A stretch of DNA of 42,423 nucleotides from positions 1-42,423 of the forward strand of contig JAHFDY010000010.1 in the NCBI GenBank assembly GCA_023248735.1, in the 5' to 3' direction. Shown here piece by piece: positions 17,491 to 27,428 of this stretch. The position numbers and the translations under genes were made by a program. Under the pieces are notes generated by a model. The model saw only the letters and a list, made by a program, of their open reading frames with translations, was not told the origin of the DNA and ran no database searches. Every line of letters begins with the position of its first letter. Position 1 is the stretch's first letter. The stretch comes from Myxococcales bacterium (lineage in GTDB: Bacteria > Myxococcota_A > Polyangia > Polyangiales > Polyangiaceae).

Positions 17491-18606
17491 ATGTCATACG
17501 AAGAAGAGCTTGTCTGGCGACGCATCGAAGAAGACTCGGACACCTCGAGGCGTGCGTTTGTCGGTGGTGTGGCAGGAGCCGTGACAGCGGCCGTGGCGGC
17601 TGGCGCGCTCATTTCGCGCTCTGCGTTCGCGAAGAGCACAAAGGGCGATCTTGAGGGCACGGCTGATCTTGCAGCGAGGCCGCCTGCGGGCTTCGTGCCG
17701 TTCGCAGCTCCTGGCCTCATCGCGAAGGTCAAGAAAGCTGACTGTTTGATGCCCAACGGCTACTACCCGAAGGAAAGCGACGCTCGCGCGATGCTTGAAC
17801 GCGCGATGCAGGAGCTCACGGGCAAGGGCTCACTGGTCGAAGCGACGCGGCTCTTCGTGCACCCCGACGACAAAGTGTGCGTCAAGGTCAACGGCATCGC
17901 AACGAAGATGATGGGGACCAACCGAGAGCTTGTGTTGCCGTTCCTGGAAGCGATGATCGCGTCGGGGGTGAAGCCCGAGAACATCAGCGTCCTCGAGCAG
18001 TACGGCAGCTTTCTCGCGGCAACACGCATCGACGAGAAATCAGTTCCAAAGGGTGTCAACGTCGTCGTGCACAGCAACGGCAACGCCGACATGGACTCAC
18101 GTCGTATCCCTGGCACGGGCACCAGCACCAAGTTTTGCCGCACACTCGTCGAATCGACGGCCGTCATCAACTTCTCGCTTATTAAGGATCATTCGATTTG
18201 TGGGTACACCGGCTGCTTGAAGAATCTGACTCACGGTACGATGATCAATCCGAGCGCGTTTCACGGGAATCACGCATCACCGCAGATCGCATTACTTTTC
18301 GCCCAAGACGTGATTCGTTCGCGCGTCCGCCTCAACATTACCGATGGCTTCAAGATCATGGCCCATGGAGGCCCCTTGTGGAAGAAACCGGAATTCGTCG
18401 TTCCTCACGAAGCGGTCTATGTCACGACCGATCCCGTCGCGATGGACGCGATTGGTTGGGACCTTGTTGAGGAAGCACGCAAGAAGTTCTCATTGAAGAC
18501 ACTCACCGAAAGTGGGCGCATCCCCGCCTACATCCGCGCAGCTGCCGACCTCGGTCTTGGCATCGAGGACCGAAAGCAAATTCGGCTAAGAGAAGTAACC
18601 ATTTGA
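17491..18606 (+). CDS. DUF362 domain-containing protein with Tat-like signal
   Basis: TSRRAFVGGVAGAVTAAVAAGALISRSAFA signal region; KVCVKVNGIATKMMGTNRELVLPFLEAMIASGVKPENISVLEQ and NFSLIKDHSICGYTGCLKNLTHG as in DUF362 proteins. Confidence 0.82.
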   Translation: MSYEEELVWRRIEEDSDTSRRAFVGGVAGAVTAAVAAGALISRSAFAKSTKGDLEGTADLAARPPAGFVPFAAPGLIAKVKKADCLMPNGYYPKESDARAMLERAMQELTGKGSLVEATRLFVHPDDKVCVKVNGIATKMMGTNRELVLPFLEAMIASGVKPENISVLEQYGSFLAATRIDEKSVPKGVNVVVHSNGNADMDSRRIPGTGTSTKFCRTLVESTAVINFSLIKDHSICGYTGCLKNLTHGTMINPSAFHGNHASPQIALLFAQDVIRSRVRLNITDGFKIMAHGGPLWKKPEFVVPHEAVYVTTDPVAMDAIGWDLVEEARKKFSLKTLTESGRIPAYIRAAADLGLGIEDRKQIRLREVTI

Positions 18607-18624
18607 AGTTACGCTTGAGCGTGA

Positions 18625-19518
18625 GTGTCGTCGCACGATTCCCAAAAAACCCGAGTGAGCGTCAGCCTCCGCGAAAGTGGGGACAAGCGAGCTACGTCTG
18701 ACGCCGCGTGCCTCGTCGTGATCTACGGGCCCGACTTGGGTCGGCGCGTGACGCTGAGCGGTCAACCCTTTGAGATCGGGCGGTCTTCGAAGTCTGACCT
18801 CACGATCGACCAAGAGAGCGTTAGCCGTCACCACGCACGGATCACGTACGAGAGCACGCTGCACTTCATCGAGGATCTTCAGTCGACGAACGGAACCTTC
18901 GTCAACGACACGTCGATTCGCAAGGGTGCAATCCGCGACGGCGACCAAGTGCAGATCGGCCGAACGATTCTGAAGTACATGACCGGCGACAATGTCGAGG
19001 CGCACTACCATGAGGAGATCTATCGCCTCATGACGATCGACGGCCTCACGCAAGTTCACAACCGTCGCTACTTTGACGAGACGCTCGACCGTGAGTTCAC
19101 GCGCTCCAAGCGATACACGCGACAACTCGCGCTCATCGTCATCGACATCGATCACTTCAAGAAGATCAACGACACATGGGGCCATCTCGCCGGCGATAGC
19201 TTGCTTCGCCAGGTGGTCTCGGCGATCAAGCCGAAGTTGCGCGCGCAAGACGTGCTCGCACGAACCGGCGGCGAGGAGTTCGCGATTCTGTCGCCTGAGA
19301 TCGATCTCGAAGGCGCACGCCTAGTCGCCGAGAAGGTGCGCGCGATCGTCGAGCAGACTGCCATGCGTTTCGAAAATGTAACTATACCATGTACAATTAG
19401 CCTCGGTGTGGCGCAGCTCTCCGCAGGCGACGAAGAGCCCTCAAAGCTCTACAAGCGCGCCGATGAGCTTCTCTACGCAGCGAAGCAGGCGGGTCGCAAT
19501 CGTGTGATGGGTGGGTAG
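18625..19518 (+). CDS. FHA-GGDEF diguanylate cyclase (GTG start)
   Basis: FHA: FEIGRSSKSDLTIDQESVSRHHARI...STNGTFVND. GGDEF: DIDHFKKINDTWGHLAGDSLLR...RAQDVLARTGGEEFAIL (RxxD I-site 5 residues upstream of GGEEF). Confidence 0.93.
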   Translation: MSSHDSQKTRVSVSLRESGDKRATSDAACLVVIYGPDLGRRVTLSGQPFEIGRSSKSDLTIDQESVSRHHARITYESTLHFIEDLQSTNGTFVNDTSIRKGAIRDGDQVQIGRTILKYMTGDNVEAHYHEEIYRLMTIDGLTQVHNRRYFDETLDREFTRSKRYTRQLALIVIDIDHFKKINDTWGHLAGDSLLRQVVSAIKPKLRAQDVLARTGGEEFAILSPEIDLEGARLVAEKVRAIVEQTAMRFENVTIPCTISLGVAQLSAGDEEPSKLYKRADELLYAAKQAGRNRVMGG

Positions 19519-20207: not shown

Positions 20208-21269
20208 TCAGGGTTCGCACTCACCGCACTCTTGCAGGCTGGCTCCCTGTGCGATCCACAGACGCACGCGCTCAAGCTCTTCGAACGAAAGTGGCGCTTC
20301 TGTCTTCGGGTCACCGACGGCTGCGTCTTCGGGTGTGCCTGGTTTCGATGGATAGGGCATGGGTTGCCCGACGACGACTTCGCCAAGTTTGGCGCGTTCT
20401 TCAACGCTCGCCGTGCGCGAATAAGGCGCGGAGTAGAGTGATGCCGTGTCGATTGGTGTCGTACCTTCAGTTCCGTCGCACTTGATCCGCCTCGCGGCCG
20501 TGGTTGTTGTCGGCGGCAACGCGAGGAGCATCTTGTAGAGAAGCCAACTGTCTCCCGGCGCACCGGGGCTGATGAGTGGCATGTCGACGCCGAATCGGAC
20601 CGTTGGGGCGGACGCTTGCGAGCGCGCGCCTGTGTTCGATGCCTGTGACACGCGAGAGATGGCGGTGAGCGCCACTCCCGATGCGGTTGTCAGCACGAGC
20701 CCGGCGGCTGGCCTTACGTGATCAGTGGCAGGCCCATGGCACGAGCCACCACCGCACTTGTTCTCCAAGATGGGAACGACGTCGCGACAGAATGTGGATA
20801 CGGGCGGCGCCGTTTGCGTTGTCGTCGATGCACTGACGGAGAAACCAATCACACGCTGAGACGAAGGGTCCAACGTTGTGCCGTCGATGCCGCGCACACC
20901 GCCGACTTGGGAGGATGACGTGCCCGCGTCGTAGTCAGGAAGCGGAAGTTCGAGCATGTAACTCTGGCCCGGTTCGAGCCACACAGAGCCCGTCTGTGGC
21001 GACAGAGTCACCGTTCGTGCAACGGGATCGTAAGTGACGGCCGGGGAGGCCGCGACTCGACCGTCAACTCCCTTGACTACGAACGATTGGCGCGACACGG
21101 ACACGGGCAGCAAGAATCGATCGAAGGCCAATTCGATCGAGCCACCCGCCGCGAGCGGCTGTGTCGAACTCACGTTGGCGCCCAAGAGGTGGATGTACCC
21201 TGTGGGGGTTACCTTGCCCGGGAATGCCTGATCGCACCCGAATGCGCCCGCAAGAGCAGCTGCTGCCAT
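20208..21269 (-). CDS. Putative lipoprotein with Ig-like domain and CX4CH cytochrome-like motif (start uncertain)
   Basis: MAAAALAGAFGCDQAFPGK lipobox-like; SIELAFDRFLLPVSVSRQSF Ig-like region; FCRDVVPILENKCGGGSCHGP. The ORF-track extension upstream of 21269 overlaps the 90-aa gene out of frame. Confidence 0.75.
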   Translation of the reverse strand: MAAAALAGAFGCDQAFPGKVTPTGYIHLLGANVSSTQPLAAGGSIELAFDRFLLPVSVSRQSFVVKGVDGRVAASPAVTYDPVARTVTLSPQTGSVWLEPGQSYMLELPLPDYDAGTSSSQVGGVRGIDGTTLDPSSQRVIGFSVSASTTTQTAPPVSTFCRDVVPILENKCGGGSCHGPATDHVRPAAGLVLTTASGVALTAISRVSQASNTGARSQASAPTVRFGVDMPLISPGAPGDSWLLYKMLLALPPTTTTAARRIKCDGTEGTTPIDTASLYSAPYSRTASVEERAKLGEVVVGQPMPYPSKPGTPEDAAVGDPKTEAPLSFEELERVRLWIAQGASLQECGECEP

Positions 21270-21340
21270 CGCGACGCCTGCAGCTATCGAACGCCCGCTC
21301 GGTGCCGTGCGAAGCTCGCTGCGCGAGAAACGATGGGCGC

Positions 21341-21613
21341 TTAGCTGTCGGTGTAGAGGTTGAGCTGCTCGCGCACGACGTCTTCGGATACGCCGGTGCG
21401 GATGTTGTCTTTCAAGCAGTCGGCCAAGGTAATGAGCAAATCGTCCACTCCCTTGTCCTGAATCAGACGCTGTAGGAGTGCTTTGCTTTCCCGGCTCTCG
21501 TCGGCTCGGAGGAACTGGCGCACCGAATCCAGCGAAATTTCGCCCTGGAAATCGATGTACATGTTCTCCAGCAGGTATCGGACGAGTTCTTTCACGGGCA
21601 GCCTCCCAGGCAA
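21341..21613 (-). CDS. Small hypothetical protein (90 aa)
   Basis: MPGRLPVKELVRYLLENMYIDFQGEISLDSVRQFLRADESRESKALLQRLIQDKGVDDLLITLADCLKDNIRTGVSEDVVREQLNLYTDS: protein-like composition, in line with the neighbouring minus-strand genes. Confidence 0.65.
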   Translation of the reverse strand: MPGRLPVKELVRYLLENMYIDFQGEISLDSVRQFLRADESRESKALLQRLIQDKGVDDLLITLADCLKDNIRTGVSEDVVREQLNLYTDS

Positions 21614-21718
21614 AAAGCGAGCTGTTCGTATAACTCTCCGCGCTCCCCGGGCGCAAGAGAGAAGCGCGTGGCCGGCTTTTCCGCCTTCGGCGTTTGGTCG
21701 CGCAATTTCCTGGGCGAT

Positions 21719-23047
21719 CTACTGGCATTGCGAGAGTGTCCTGTCGCCGGGCTCGTGGCAGACGTAACAAGGTCTCGGGTTACGCTTGAATTGGGTCGAG
21801 CAGCCGCCGGCAAAGCCCGCACGGTGCGGATTGAAGCCGCCGCCAATGCCGCGCGCGCCATGGCAACCTGTGCAGTCACGTTCGATGTGGCAGCTCACAC
21901 ACGCATTGAGATTGCGTTGCGCTTCGAAGGCATGGTGACCGGGTTTTCGAGGCGCGTCGCTCCACTCGCTCTTTTGGGGGTGGAATCGACCGCTGTTGCG
22001 AAGATTGGCCGGGCCACTCATCGATACGCCCGTGCGCTGGTGGCAGTCGACGCAGAACGTTTGCTCGCGATGGCAGCTCGTGCATCGTTGCGTTGCCTGG
22101 CGCGCCTCGATTGCGTGCATGTTCAAGTAGTCGTTCGGGTGAATGCTGCGCGGCCGAACGCGTCCGTCGTGGCAATCTGTGCAGTACTTCTCAGAGTGGC
22201 ATTGCGCGCATACCTGAGAGTTCGTGCCCGCAACTTGTTTGTGCCGTTCGATAAAGTCGGGCGTATGGCCGGCGTTGTTTAGCCACTTTGGGGGCTTGAG
22301 CGTGCCAGACGCGAAGGTGGTTCGCAGCACCCCCTCACCGTTTTTGCTCTTGATGTGACACGTTTCGCATGCGCTCTTTGCGTCGCCTTGCGATGCTGAG
22401 TCGGGCATCTCGTGGCAGTGCAGGCACCCGTTCATACGTGGAAGTTGATCGCGCGTTGCAAGCTCGAGTTCTTTGATCGCGCCGTGGCATTTGTCACAAC
22501 CGATGTTACGAACAACGTGCTTCTGGTGAGAGAAGATCATGTTCGCGCGTGGCAACACCAGTCGCGCTACGCGATTTCCGTCGCCCGCCTTGTAACCGTT
22601 GTGGCAGAACGCGCAGCCACCCATCGAACCGCCGCCCGCCTTGACCTCCGCCTTGTTGTCATGGTTCGTGCCGTGGCATCCGTCGCACGTTTGTGGTTGG
22701 GGCAAGAGATAGTCTTCAGTCGAATTGCTCGTCGCGGCCTTGGCGTGACAGTCCTTGCAACCGAGACCAAGCGACGAATCGAGATGCTTCTTGTGGTTGA
22801 AGCGAATCGTGAGCGCTTGCGGTGGAAACACAACAGGGCTCGGTCCAGGGTCTTGCTTCAATGCGCCGGGTGGCATCCATTTGAGCGGCACCGCGACGTT
22901 GCCTGGCATTGGCGCCATGCCATGACGACTCGCGGGGTCGCCGCCAGCGATAGCGTCTTCATCTGAAAGCGCGAAGCAGGCTGCGAGCGCCGCAACGAGC
23001 ACCGGCAGAAGCAGAAAGATCCAGCGGAGGGCCGCGGGCCTGGTCAT
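21719..23047 (-). CDS. Multiheme c-type cytochrome (13 CxxCH), putative lipoprotein
   Basis: CxxCH motifs counted: CKDCH, CDGCH, CAFCH, CDKCH, CLHCH, CETCH, CAQCH, CTDCH, CTSCH, CVDCH, CVSCH, CTGCH, CYVCH. N-term VAALAAC lipobox. Confidence 0.95.
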   Translation of the reverse strand: MTRPAALRWIFLLLPVLVAALAACFALSDEDAIAGGDPASRHGMAPMPGNVAVPLKWMPPGALKQDPGPSPVVFPPQALTIRFNHKKHLDSSLGLGCKDCHAKAATSNSTEDYLLPQPQTCDGCHGTNHDNKAEVKAGGGSMGGCAFCHNGYKAGDGNRVARLVLPRANMIFSHQKHVVRNIGCDKCHGAIKELELATRDQLPRMNGCLHCHEMPDSASQGDAKSACETCHIKSKNGEGVLRTTFASGTLKPPKWLNNAGHTPDFIERHKQVAGTNSQVCAQCHSEKYCTDCHDGRVRPRSIHPNDYLNMHAIEARQATQRCTSCHREQTFCVDCHQRTGVSMSGPANLRNSGRFHPQKSEWSDAPRKPGHHAFEAQRNLNACVSCHIERDCTGCHGARGIGGGFNPHRAGFAGGCSTQFKRNPRPCYVCHEPGDRTLSQCQ

Positions 23048-24615
23048 GGTGTGACCGCCACATTCAGCGAAAACACGAGGCGGAAGCGATGCCCGACCAA
23101 ACTGTTCATGTAGTGATCAAATTCAAGATTCGCCTTCGAGCGTTCGCCGAGCAAGTAGCCGATGCCCGCCATGTAACCGCCGCTCACGCTGTCGCGATTG
23201 GTGCGCAGCTTGTCGTCCCACGCCCAGAGTGATCCTCTGCCCGACAAAACGTAACGTTGACTGATCAATTTTTCCGCATAGACATCACCGCCGACGCGCT
23301 GTCCGCTATCACCGAAGTTCCCCGCTCCCTTTGCGCCCAGCGTCAGGGTTCCCGCACGATAGCGAAGAGACGCCGTCCCTCCGGCATCGAAAGGTGTGCC
23401 GTTGGTCGGATAGACGCTTGGGTTGTAGAAGTCCGTCAATCCAGGTGACGAATTGGATCGCGTGGGCTGGGTTTGAATACTAAACACCCGCCCGTACCCG
23501 CTCGCCGAGACGCTCAACTTCTCCGTCGCCTCAACGCTACCCCTCAGCGCGAGGTAGTTCATTGGCTCAGCTCCGAAGAAATTCCAGATCGAGTCAGCGT
23601 CGAATGAAGGTTGATAGTAGTCGTAGTCGGCGCTTAATGTAACTCTCTTCGTTGCGTATACGTCGGCACTCGCGAACACTTGCGTGACATTCGAACCGTA
23701 GAAGTCGTAGACCATGCCGCTCTTCACGCCGCCCCAGTTGGAGAGGTTGAAGTTGACCGATCCACCAATGCGCTCCTGCGAGATGCGCATCCCATCGTAG
23801 ATCGCCGGTGTGAGTAGCCCACTTTGGAATTGAGATAGGTTTGAGCTCCCGGTGTTGTAGACGCGCCTGTAGCTCAGCTTCGCGTTGAGCCACGACCACC
23901 CCGCCGTCTCGACCGAGGTGCCCATTGCGGGTGCGATCGATGTCGGCTGAAACGATGGGTAGAGGGTTGGATCGTAGCCGCTACGGTCACCGCGCCAGAT
24001 TCCGTCGCGCTCAAAGCGGCCGGTCGACAGCGGCAGTCCACCGCGTACTTCGAACCCGCCGTAGCCCTCGAATGCGACGTGATACGGGCTCGTCACCTTA
24101 ACGAGAGCGCCGTCGAAGGACCACCACCCAAGGGGATCGACGACGTATTGCCGACCCGCGCGAAAGCCTAGCCACCCCCTAAGAAGCCTGCGGCCCTCAA
24201 GGTACGCGTACATGATGTCGACGGGGCCTCGGGAAAGGCCTGGTACGAACTGGCCGTAGTCGCCGGGATCCGTAAACCCACCGTTCCCATAGTCGGCGTC
24301 ATAGCGAACGCGCGCGACGAAGCTGAGGTCCGCACCGAGGCGACGTTTGTCAACTTGCCTGACGAGATTGTACGCACCTACCCCAAGCGTGGTCGTGACC
24401 CTGCGTCGCGCATACACGACCTCTCCGGTCGGGCTACGGACGTCGTAGAATTGCGCGGCAGTGTCGCTCGTCACGTCGTAGTCAGCGGCTGAGGCAGACA
24501 GACTCGAAGTGAATGCGGCTGAGGCGAGGGCTAGAGCGGGGCTGCGGCTGCGCACGGTGTGGTGGACACGACCTCCGAGCTCGAGAGGGAAGCAAGACTT
24601 GGCGCGAGACGTCAA
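23044..24615 (-). CDS. Outer-membrane beta-barrel protein (candidate porin partner of the multiheme cytochrome; start uncertain)
   Basis: Signal-like PALALASAAFTSSLSASAA, alternating amphipathic strands (e.g. VTLSADYDYYQPSF, LRYRAGTLTLGAKGAG), C-term HRFRLVFSLNVAVTP. 4-nt overlap with the cytochrome start. Confidence 0.8.
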   Translation of the reverse strand: MTSRAKSCFPLELGGRVHHTVRSRSPALALASAAFTSSLSASAADYDVTSDTAAQFYDVRSPTGEVVYARRRVTTTLGVGAYNLVRQVDKRRLGADLSFVARVRYDADYGNGGFTDPGDYGQFVPGLSRGPVDIMYAYLEGRRLLRGWLGFRAGRQYVVDPLGWWSFDGALVKVTSPYHVAFEGYGGFEVRGGLPLSTGRFERDGIWRGDRSGYDPTLYPSFQPTSIAPAMGTSVETAGWSWLNAKLSYRRVYNTGSSNLSQFQSGLLTPAIYDGMRISQERIGGSVNFNLSNWGGVKSGMVYDFYGSNVTQVFASADVYATKRVTLSADYDYYQPSFDADSIWNFFGAEPMNYLALRGSVEATEKLSVSASGYGRVFSIQTQPTRSNSSPGLTDFYNPSVYPTNGTPFDAGGTASLRYRAGTLTLGAKGAGNFGDSGQRVGGDVYAEKLISQRYVLSGRGSLWAWDDKLRTNRDSVSGGYMAGIGYLLGERSKANLEFDHYMNSLVGHRFRLVFSLNVAVTP

Positions 24616-24901
24616 CCTAATTTACGGGGCTTCTCGCGTGTCTGTCCTCAATTCGAAACATCTTCCCTTGCACTTGTCTCGAAATGCCTCAGAGTTTTCT
24701 CGCGGCGCCGAAAGATAATAACGACGCACAGGTCCGCACAAAACGCGAGCGCCCGCAGTTTCTGACCAAATGGCGGTGCGACGCGACCGTGAAGCTTGAG
24801 CGCGTATGCGCGACGGCTTCGCACGGATCAGCCATCCGCGTGGGGCGGGTGAAGTCTTGTCTATTGCTTACGTTCCGACTTGGGATCTGGGGGGATTCGT
24901 C

Positions 24902-25861
24902 ATGCGTATGATTGGTGTAGGTCATGTTTTTGGCTTCGGTTGTGCACTTCTTGCGGCGGCCTGTTCCGGCGACATCGGAGGAAGCGATAACGACACGTCC
25001 GCAGACGGATTGACGCGGCAATGTGCAGCCAGCGATACAGTCAAGGGAATTGACGTTTCGAAGTGGCAAGGCGACATCGACTGGACGAAAGCGGCGAGCG
25101 ATGGAATCGCGTTTGCGTTCACTCGCGTAAGTTACGGGACGAGCTCTAACGATTCGAAGTTTGGTCGCAACTGGGCAGGTGCAGGCAGCGCCGGTTTGTA
25201 TCGCGGCGCCTATCAGTACTTTCGCGCAGGGCAGGACGCAGCCGAGCAGGCGAACAAGGTCGTCGATGCAGTTGGTGTACTCGGCAACGGTGACCTTCCA
25301 GTGGTCCTCGACATTGAGGAAGCGGATGACCAGTCGTCGGCCACGGTCCTCAGTAAGATTCGTGAGTGGTTGCTGATCGTCGAAGCTGGCACGGGAAAGA
25401 CACCGATTATCTACACAGGCGGTTACTTTTGGAACTCACTGAAGGGTGGCACAGAGTTCGCGAAGTACCCTCTTTGGATCGCCAACTACGGCGCCTCGTG
25501 TCCCAAAATGGCTTCCGGTTTTTCGAAGTGGTCGTTCTGGCAGTATTCAGACGAAGGGTCGGTTTCGGGAATCTCAGGGGACGTCGACCTCGACGTCTTC
25601 AACGGTTCACTCAAAGACCTTGCAGCACTCGCTGGGCCTACGGGTGAGTCCGCCGTCGTCGTTGCTGGCTTGCTCAACCTCCGAGAGGGCAGCGGCACGT
25701 CGCATCCGATCATCACACAGATGGAGTGCGGCTCCGAACTTACGATTCTCGAGCACGATGAATGGGGATGGGCGAGGGTCCGTTACGGGGCAACCGAGGG
25801 TTGGTGCAACGAGAGCTACCTCATCCCAAAAAGCGAATTCGACGCGTACGTCTGCTACTGA
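24902..25861 (+). CDS. GH25-family lysozyme (muramidase) lipoprotein with C-terminal SH3b domain
   Basis: GIDVSKWQGDIDWTKAASDGIAFAFTRVSYG; LPVVLDIEEADD; PIIYTGGYFWNS; WQYSDEGSVSGISGDVDLDVFNG. SH3b-like VVVAGLLNLREGSGTSHPIITQMECGSELTI. Lipobox LLAAAC. Confidence 0.92.
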   Translation: MRMIGVGHVFGFGCALLAAACSGDIGGSDNDTSADGLTRQCAASDTVKGIDVSKWQGDIDWTKAASDGIAFAFTRVSYGTSSNDSKFGRNWAGAGSAGLYRGAYQYFRAGQDAAEQANKVVDAVGVLGNGDLPVVLDIEEADDQSSATVLSKIREWLLIVEAGTGKTPIIYTGGYFWNSLKGGTEFAKYPLWIANYGASCPKMASGFSKWSFWQYSDEGSVSGISGDVDLDVFNGSLKDLAALAGPTGESAVVVAGLLNLREGSGTSHPIITQMECGSELTILEHDEWGWARVRYGATEGWCNESYLIPKSEFDAYVCY

Positions 25862-25973
25862 ATGGCCCTCGTCGGTCCAGCGCGACCGGTCTAAACGTGG
25901 CCGATATGAGGCTTCCAAGAGGAAGCTTGCCCTCGCGGCGCGTGGATTTTACGCTTCGGCGGCGGCTTGACTG

Positions 25974-27428
25974 ATGAGTGACCATCCCCAACAGCGTTAT
26001 CGCGTCGTTGAAAAACTCGAATCTGGAGGGATGGCCGAAGTTTTTCGCGCCGAGAGCGAGGGTTTGCAGGGGTTCCGCAAGCAGGTCGCGATCAAGCGCG
26101 TCTTGCCGCATCTCAGCTCGAAGACGAAGTTCATCCAGATGTTCTTGGATGAGGCGCGACTCTCAGCGCAACTTTCGCACTCGAACTGCGTTCAGGTTTT
26201 CGACATCGGCGTCGGTGACAACACGTACTTCATCGTTATGGAGTTCGTCGACGGGGCGAACCTCAAGAGCGTCACCGACTCGCTCCGAAAGCAAGGTCGT
26301 GAGTTTCCGATCGAGGCGGCACTCTTCATCTGTATCGAGATTTGCAAGGGCCTAAGCTATGCGCACGAACTTACCGATCAGCGCGGGCTTCCCTTGCAGA
26401 TTGTCCATCGTGACATCTCGCCTCCGAACGTGCTCATCACGAAGTTTGGCGAAATCAAGATCGTGGATTTTGGCCTCGCCAAGGCGAGCACGCAACTCGA
26501 GAAGAGCGAGCCTGGCATCATCAAAGGTAAGTTCGCTTACCTTTCGCCTGAGCTTGCATCGGGCAAGGAAGTTGACGCTCGCGCCGACGTATTCGCGGTC
26601 GGTATCATTTTGTGGGAGCTGCTTGCGGGCAAGCGCCTTTTCTTGGGCGACACCGATTACCAGACCGTGAAGAACATTCAGGCGGCGGTTGTCCCCCCGA
26701 TCGGCCAGCTCAATCCGCTGGTGACCACCGAACTTGAGCGCATTGTGAATCGCGCGCTCGCGAAAGACCTCGATGCACGGTACCGAACGGCACGCGAGCT
26801 TGGCTATGATCTTACGCGGCTATTGTTCAAGCTAGGCAAGCCCGTGAGCACGTTCGACATTGCGTCGCAGGTCCACTTTGCAATGCGTGATCGCGCACGC
26901 CAAAGGCCCGCATCGTCGCGGATCGACAAGTTGATTGAAGAGACACTGCTCGAGTTCACGTCGCTTACGGAGGGCGAGGAACAGCCCGTGGTGCGCAAGA
27001 GCAAGCCGCTTGCGATCAACGATTTTTCAAAGTGGATTTCGGAGATCGCGCCGTCAAGCCGTCCTAGCGACCCGTATCCACTCCATCAGTCGCTGCCCCC
27101 AAATTTGAGTGAAGGTAACCTTGCGCTTCTCGAGGAAGATGACATCCCCTTATCGCCACCGTCCTCCTCTCAACGCCTTCCGCCCGTAGGGCCGGCGATC
27201 ACGATGGGGGGGAATCCGGTCGCAGGCGTGAAGGCGACTTTGGCGACGCTGCGTTCGATTCCGCCGCCGCTGCTTCCCGATCCACTCGCGCTCGCTGCGG
27301 CGAATGAAAACCCGCCAAAAATCGCCGTCGCCGAAGCGCAGTCCCGCGCGTGGCTCTACGCCTTACTTGCGGGTCTGGTGCTGATCGGTGTCGCCCTTGT
27401 GATGTTTGTGATGCGACAACGAAGTTGA
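25974..27428 (+). CDS. Serine/threonine protein kinase with C-terminal TM helix
   Basis: VEKLESGGMAEVFRAESEG (Gly loop), QVAIKRVLPHL, IVHRDISPPNVLITKFGEIKIVDFGLAKA (HRD/DFG). C-term WLYALLAGLVLIGVALVMFVM. Confidence 0.95.
   Translation: MSDHPQQRYRVVEKLESGGMAEVFRAESEGLQGFRKQVAIKRVLPHLSSKTKFIQMFLDEARLSAQLSHSNCVQVFDIGVGDNTYFIVMEFVDGANLKSVTDSLRKQGREFPIEAALFICIEICKGLSYAHELTDQRGLPLQIVHRDISPPNVLITKFGEIKIVDFGLAKASTQLEKSEPGIIKGKFAYLSPELASGKEVDARADVFAVGIILWELLAGKRLFLGDTDYQTVKNIQAAVVPPIGQLNPLVTTELERIVNRALAKDLDARYRTARELGYDLTRLLFKLGKPVSTFDIASQVHFAMRDRARQRPASSRIDKLIEETLLEFTSLTEGEEQPVVRKSKPLAINDFSKWISEIAPSSRPSDPYPLHQSLPPNLSEGNLALLEEDDIPLSPPSSSQRLPPVGPAITMGGNPVAGVKATLATLRSIPPPLLPDPLALAAANENPPKIAVAEAQSRAWLYALLAGLVLIGVALVMFVMRQRS

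Follow-up and report, generated by a model that had tools for sequence, protein, structure and literature searches.

Geobacter porin-cytochrome conduits are recognised by three genomic elements, namely an integral outer-membrane beta-strand protein, a multiheme periplasmic c-type cytochrome and a redox lipoprotein, the last of which is located on the outer membrane in published conduits (PMC6148476). The lipoprotein varies among the Ext clusters of Geobacter sulfurreducens (PMC6148476). In the phylum Myxococcota, outer-membrane electron transfer has so far been discussed mainly for Anaeromyxobacter, whose Pcc systems are two-gene clusters encoding a porin-like protein and a periplasmic cytochrome with 12 hemes and 338-344 aa (PMC4245776). 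The present analysis concerns a 42,423-nucleotide stretch of DNA (hereafter, the window) from a Myxococcales bacterium of the order Polyangiales, family Polyangiaceae (assembly GCA_023248735.1, contig JAHFDY010000010.1), the source being a draft genome of 4.39 Mb, 88% complete. Positions 20208-24615 carry four minus-strand open reading frames (ORFs), for a beta-barrel, a 13-heme cytochrome, a small protein and a lipoprotein. The barrel and the cytochrome are likely to constitute a porin-cytochrome conduit that takes electrons across the outer membrane.

A sequence-only reading of the window had already listed these four genes, which the ORF list confirms, and had proposed a barrel and multiheme conduit that is not of the MtrB type, an idea that conserved coupling, co-evolution and modelling now support well. 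The survey of gene neighbourhoods that it called for separates the four genes: the barrel and the cytochrome are coupled and co-evolve, the lipoprotein co-occurs with the barrel, and the small gene is probably independent. No published description of the locus in Polyangiales was found, most subscription papers lying outside the literature searched.

The barrel and its probable cytochrome partner

The barrel ORF extends from 23044 to 24615, and ortholog alignments favour a later start, at the GTG at 24555. The AlphaFold2 model of the protein (mean predicted local distance difference test score, pLDDT, of 84) contains 22 long strands. In a Foldseek search, this model scores best, though modestly, against outer-membrane barrels and pilus ushers; among the matches listed, the receptor PfeA has the highest query TM-score (0.46). 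Both the predicted 22-strand model and these fold matches correspond to the outer-membrane beta-strand protein of the Geobacter conduits. The sequence itself has no match in Pfam, NCBIfam or the Protein Data Bank (PDB), and the MtrB_PioB family (PF11854) matches neither the barrel nor anything else in the source genome, in keeping with the non-MtrB type proposed. A barrel too narrow to house a cytochrome, the outcome that the sequence-only reading regarded as adverse, was not found: standard barrel geometry gives a backbone radius of about 20 Å for 22 strands and about 24 Å for the 26 strands of an MtrB-like barrel, so that width is no argument against an enclosed cytochrome.

The cytochrome carries the 13 CxxCH motifs initially counted; in 10,000 shuffled versions of its sequence, the average is 0.12 and no version has more than 4. 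It also passes the Pfam cut-offs of Cytochrome_C7, Cytochrom_CIII and Cytochrom_c3_2. Together with an export signal in almost all orthologs, these motifs correspond to the multiheme periplasmic cytochrome element. The lipobox that had been noticed is indeed present in the window (LAAC, Cys24), but it is confined to the window's own genus, in which two relatives share it; as most orthologs outside the genus carry ordinary Sec signals, a conserved cytochrome lipobox is rejected.

The barrel and cytochrome ORFs share 4 nt. This overlap, pointed out from the sequence alone, recurs in 27 loci and is kept in most of the orthologous ones. Further away, in other families and classes of the phylum, a 13-heme relative lies directly downstream of the barrel in all 10 divergent homologs read. 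Pairwise distances between barrels are correlated with those between cytochromes (0.91, or 0.88 with the small-gene signal removed), and none of 2000 permutations gives a correlation as high. The two proteins very probably function together.

Two modules can be distinguished in the cytochrome. The N-terminal half, with six hemes, is related to c7 cytochromes and to ActA of alternative complex III (PDB profile E-values from 1e-17 to 1e-12), and MtrA gives a weak profile match to the cytochrome (E 6e-4). The cytochrome fold search, for which the underlying model is poor, yields weak matches to ActA only. In three loci of family f26 (L178, L179 and L188), the N-terminal hemes are missing and the C-terminal 7-heme module alone follows the barrel. 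L189, the fourth member, has 13 hemes and clusters with these three in the tree, which suggests that the N-terminal module was lost in them. Because the 7-heme forms keep the C-terminal module alone with the barrel, this module appears to be the barrel-associated part, and it may be placed inside the barrel. The tree of the 7-heme module broadly tracks families within the order, as vertical inheritance would predict.

A paralogous conduit family, again composed of a barrel and a 13-heme cytochrome, with a lipobox in some members, is present in Myxococcota (L053, L054, L055, L059, L060 and L180-L187). Its cytochrome, found in many Myxococcota, is homologous to that of the window (profile comparison, E 5e-51), and the tree splits the two cytochrome families with 100/100 support. 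The upstream barrel is strongly diverged, and the loci read mostly include cytochromes with 16-33 hemes, together with further cytochromes of about 10-12 hemes. No relative of the window's lipoprotein was found in the second-family loci read, and no strong member of the family in the source genome. The members L180-L187 (about 345-380 aa, 13 hemes) resemble the two-gene Pcc clusters of Anaeromyxobacter, as matched by published description.

The lipoprotein, the small gene and their surroundings

The lipoprotein is taken to be about 350 aa long rather than 520 aa, since the 520-aa ORF (to 21770) runs, in its upstream part, across the small gene in a different frame; the whole ORF is, therefore, rejected as the fourth gene. 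The sole in-frame ATG (21269) leaves 11 residues ahead of the lipobox Cys, an unusually short signal, and no further common start codon is found from there to the small gene (region 20208-21290). An alignment of 29 relatives, in which row L034 is probably misassigned, reveals several conserved features: the lipobox Cys, directly followed by Asp in nearly all sequences, an Ig-like region, one heme motif ranging from CX2CH to CX4CH, and a Met-Pro pair, which could provide the second heme ligand. Pfam Big_5 scores above its cut-off in the L051 lipoprotein.

The barrel is found with strong scores in 105 of the 134 genomes of the order; of 237 genomes from the phylum as a whole, 83 have a match at any significant score. 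The named carriers of cytochrome relatives include Sorangium cellulosum, Minicystis rosea, Polyangium and Labilithrix, along with many metagenome-assembled genomes (MAGs) labelled Myxococcales or Polyangiaceae. A strong lipoprotein match accompanies 104 of the 105 barrel-positive genomes of the order and none of the 28 barrel-negative ones, which cover 14 genera in several families (Fisher p ~6e-28, phylogeny uncorrected; the count omits G051, in which the end of a contig cuts the locus). Only G032 departs from the pattern; it is a fragmented MAG and has no cytochrome match either. The small gene, which adjoins that of the lipoprotein, offers a built-in control, and it is retained in 23 of the 28 barrel-negative genomes. 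The association goes beyond linkage, because it persists where the lipoprotein and barrel genes are on different contigs (G055, G041, G210 and G229). Co-occurrence even in unlinked positions designates the CX4CH lipoprotein as a probable conduit partner, in agreement with its inclusion in the set originally proposed. With a conserved lipobox and c-type heme motif, in addition to this co-occurrence, it also resembles the redox lipoprotein element of Geobacter.

The small gene was first listed as encoding 90 aa; alignments favour a GTG start, preceded by GGGAGG, that gives 84 aa. The protein has a mean column identity of 76%, matches no Pfam family and shows no export signal. Found in 128 of the 134 genomes, it is apparently the product of an uncharacterised core gene of the order.

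The features of the locus are collected in Table 1.

Table 1. Positions in the window of the genes, modules and motif discussed in the text.
Feature	Position	Strand	Basis
Outer-membrane beta-barrel, ~503 aa including signal peptide, 22 long predicted strands	23044..24555	-	AlphaFold2 model, ortholog alignments
13-heme c-type cytochrome, 442 aa, Sec-exported	21719..23047	-	13 CxxCH, Pfam, ortholog export signals
N-terminal 6-heme c7-like module, residues ~70-231	22355..22840	-	PDB profile matches; missing from L178, L179, L188
C-terminal 7-heme module, residues ~250-442	21719..22300	-	part kept with barrel in 7-heme forms
Conserved small protein, 84 aa from a GTG start, without a visible export signal; a probable neighbour	21341..21595	-	ortholog alignments, phylogenetic profile
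One-heme lipoprotein, ~350 aa: lipobox (FGC-Asp), Ig-like domain, CX4CH domain; start uncertain	20208..21269	-	alignment of relatives
CGGGSCH heme motif (CX4CH) of the lipoprotein; CX2CH to CX4CH at the same place in relatives	20736..20756	-	

On the plus strand, the flanks (17491-19518 and 24806-27428) encode a DUF362 protein, an FHA-GGDEF protein, a GH25 lysozyme-like protein with an SH3 domain, and a serine/threonine kinase. Of these genes, those for DUF362, FHA-GGDEF and the kinase have relatives that turn up again near the locus in some related genomes. Sorangium-like loci have SRP54-type GTPase, HEAT-repeat and Ig-like proteins as neighbours, which give no functional clue. In other families, DsbA-like and TlpA-like genes are found near the lipoprotein gene; they are not universal, and would suit cytochrome maturation.

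Proposed function and alternatives

From genes, coupling, co-evolution, co-occurrence and cytochrome modularity read in the sequence, and from a predicted barrel fold, we infer a complex, its location, the direction of electron flow and the acceptor. The barrel would act as an insulating sleeve, and the C-terminal 7-heme module, in or against it, would carry electrons across the outer membrane. The N-terminal c7-like module would reach into the periplasm with its six hemes and accept electrons from donors there or in the inner membrane. The one-heme Ig-like lipoprotein would be an accessory redox partner, placed most simply at the outer membrane, and inner-membrane anchoring is left possible by the Asp after its lipid-bearing Cys. 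By default, electrons would most likely flow outward, to ferric iron, humics or redox shuttles, when oxygen is short.

Several observations weigh against such a conduit. The fold search links the barrel to generic outer-membrane barrels only, and the cytochrome model is poor in the C-terminal half, precisely the one expected to fill the barrel. Heme loading of the cytochrome and its insertion in the outer membrane are beyond the reach of sequence data, and no large surface cytochrome is encoded at the locus. Finally, to our knowledge, Sorangium and Polyangium are grown as aerobes and are not known for extracellular respiration.

The position of the lipoprotein admits another interpretation, unlikely but to be taken seriously, in which it has its anchor in the inner membrane or is turned towards the periplasm, and supplies the conduit with electrons instead of forming its outer end. 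In E. coli, Asp after the lipidated Cys is an inner-membrane retention signal, and this residue is found at that place in nearly all of the lipoprotein's relatives. Nevertheless, lipoprotein sorting rules vary between bacteria, and the published conduits have their redox lipoprotein on the outer membrane (PMC6148476).

As the main alternative to outward respiration, the same conduit could serve a non-respiratory purpose in aerobic cells, by delivering surface electrons for iron acquisition (reduction of ferric iron or its chelates) or to secreted oxidoreductases. Conservation in genera that, as is generally known, are cultured aerobically, such as Sorangium and Polyangium, speaks for this role, as does a locus without a large cytochrome of the mineral-reducing type. 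It is, however, rather improbable; among the neighbours examined, genes for iron uptake or secreted oxidoreductases are not found repeatedly next to the pair.

More improbable still is a soluble cytochrome serving as periplasmic electron store or shuttle, with an ordinary porin merely encoded in the same operon. The plain Sec signals of most cytochrome orthologs would fit this arrangement, as would the long loops of the barrel model and its likeness to generic porins and receptors, but the two proteins are paired across the phylum and co-evolve. Moreover, the 13-heme cytochrome of the paralogous family is likewise preceded by a barrel of its own, and the 7-heme form retains the barrel.

A single dedicated system comprising all four genes can hardly be defended: many Polyangiaceae loci do share the order barrel-cytochrome-small-lipoprotein, but the small gene persists in most genomes without the barrel, lies apart from the barrel in members of families f5 and f6, and is separated from the cytochrome gene by an opposite-strand gene in L050 (glycosyltransferase-like) and in L045 (its cluster-mate). 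On this phylogenetic profile, the small protein, counted among the conduit genes in the sequence-only reading, is rejected as a component and is probably a bystander, that is, an independent neighbour.

The proposed conduit of barrel and 13-heme cytochrome may have a wider bearing. It is tentatively proposed, with belief and doubt nearly in balance, that it is order-wide and largely vertically inherited, also in genera cultured aerobically, Sorangium and Polyangium among them, that the one-heme Ig-like lipoprotein replaces the usual multiheme surface cytochrome, and that extracellular electron transfer is common in a group that is not known for this trait. If this is true, most of the order, with Sorangium, Polyangium and Minicystis, can move electrons through the outer membrane and would have an unrecognised way of respiring, obtaining iron or driving surface chemistry under low oxygen. 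An uncharacterised porin-cytochrome family would be added, and the question would be accessible in cultured species.

Comparison with known systems

The set in the window largely agrees with the genomic pattern by which Geobacter conduits such as OmbB-OmaB-OmcB and Ext are identified (PMC6148476), since it contains two of the three elements and probably the third, the redox lipoprotein. Compared by description with OmbB-OmaB-OmcB, it differs in that its lipoprotein carries a single heme next to an Ig-like domain, where the Geobacter system has a 12-heme cytochrome. It shares with MtrCAB, PioAB and MtoAB the combination of a barrel and a multiheme periplasmic cytochrome, but its barrel is not of the MtrB_PioB family, has 22 predicted strands instead of 26, is paired with 13 hemes instead of 10, and comes without MtrC. 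ActA of alternative complex III and the c7 cytochromes resemble the N-terminal 6-heme half by profile, and have neither the C-terminal 7-heme module nor a barrel partner.

Pcc of Anaeromyxobacter (PMC4245776) has the same layout, with a porin-like protein and one periplasmic cytochrome of similar heme number, and the two-gene cluster as published includes no cytochrome for the cell surface. Its defining combination, a porin-like protein with a 12-14-heme periplasmic cytochrome (PMC4245776), is found here in conserved form, as the barrel and the 13-heme cytochrome. The Pcc-resembling family (L180-L183, matched by description) and the window's family fall into separate clades (100/100). The locus is best read as a conduit of the already known porin-cytochrome type, without a match to MtrB/PioB and separate from the second myxobacterial family.
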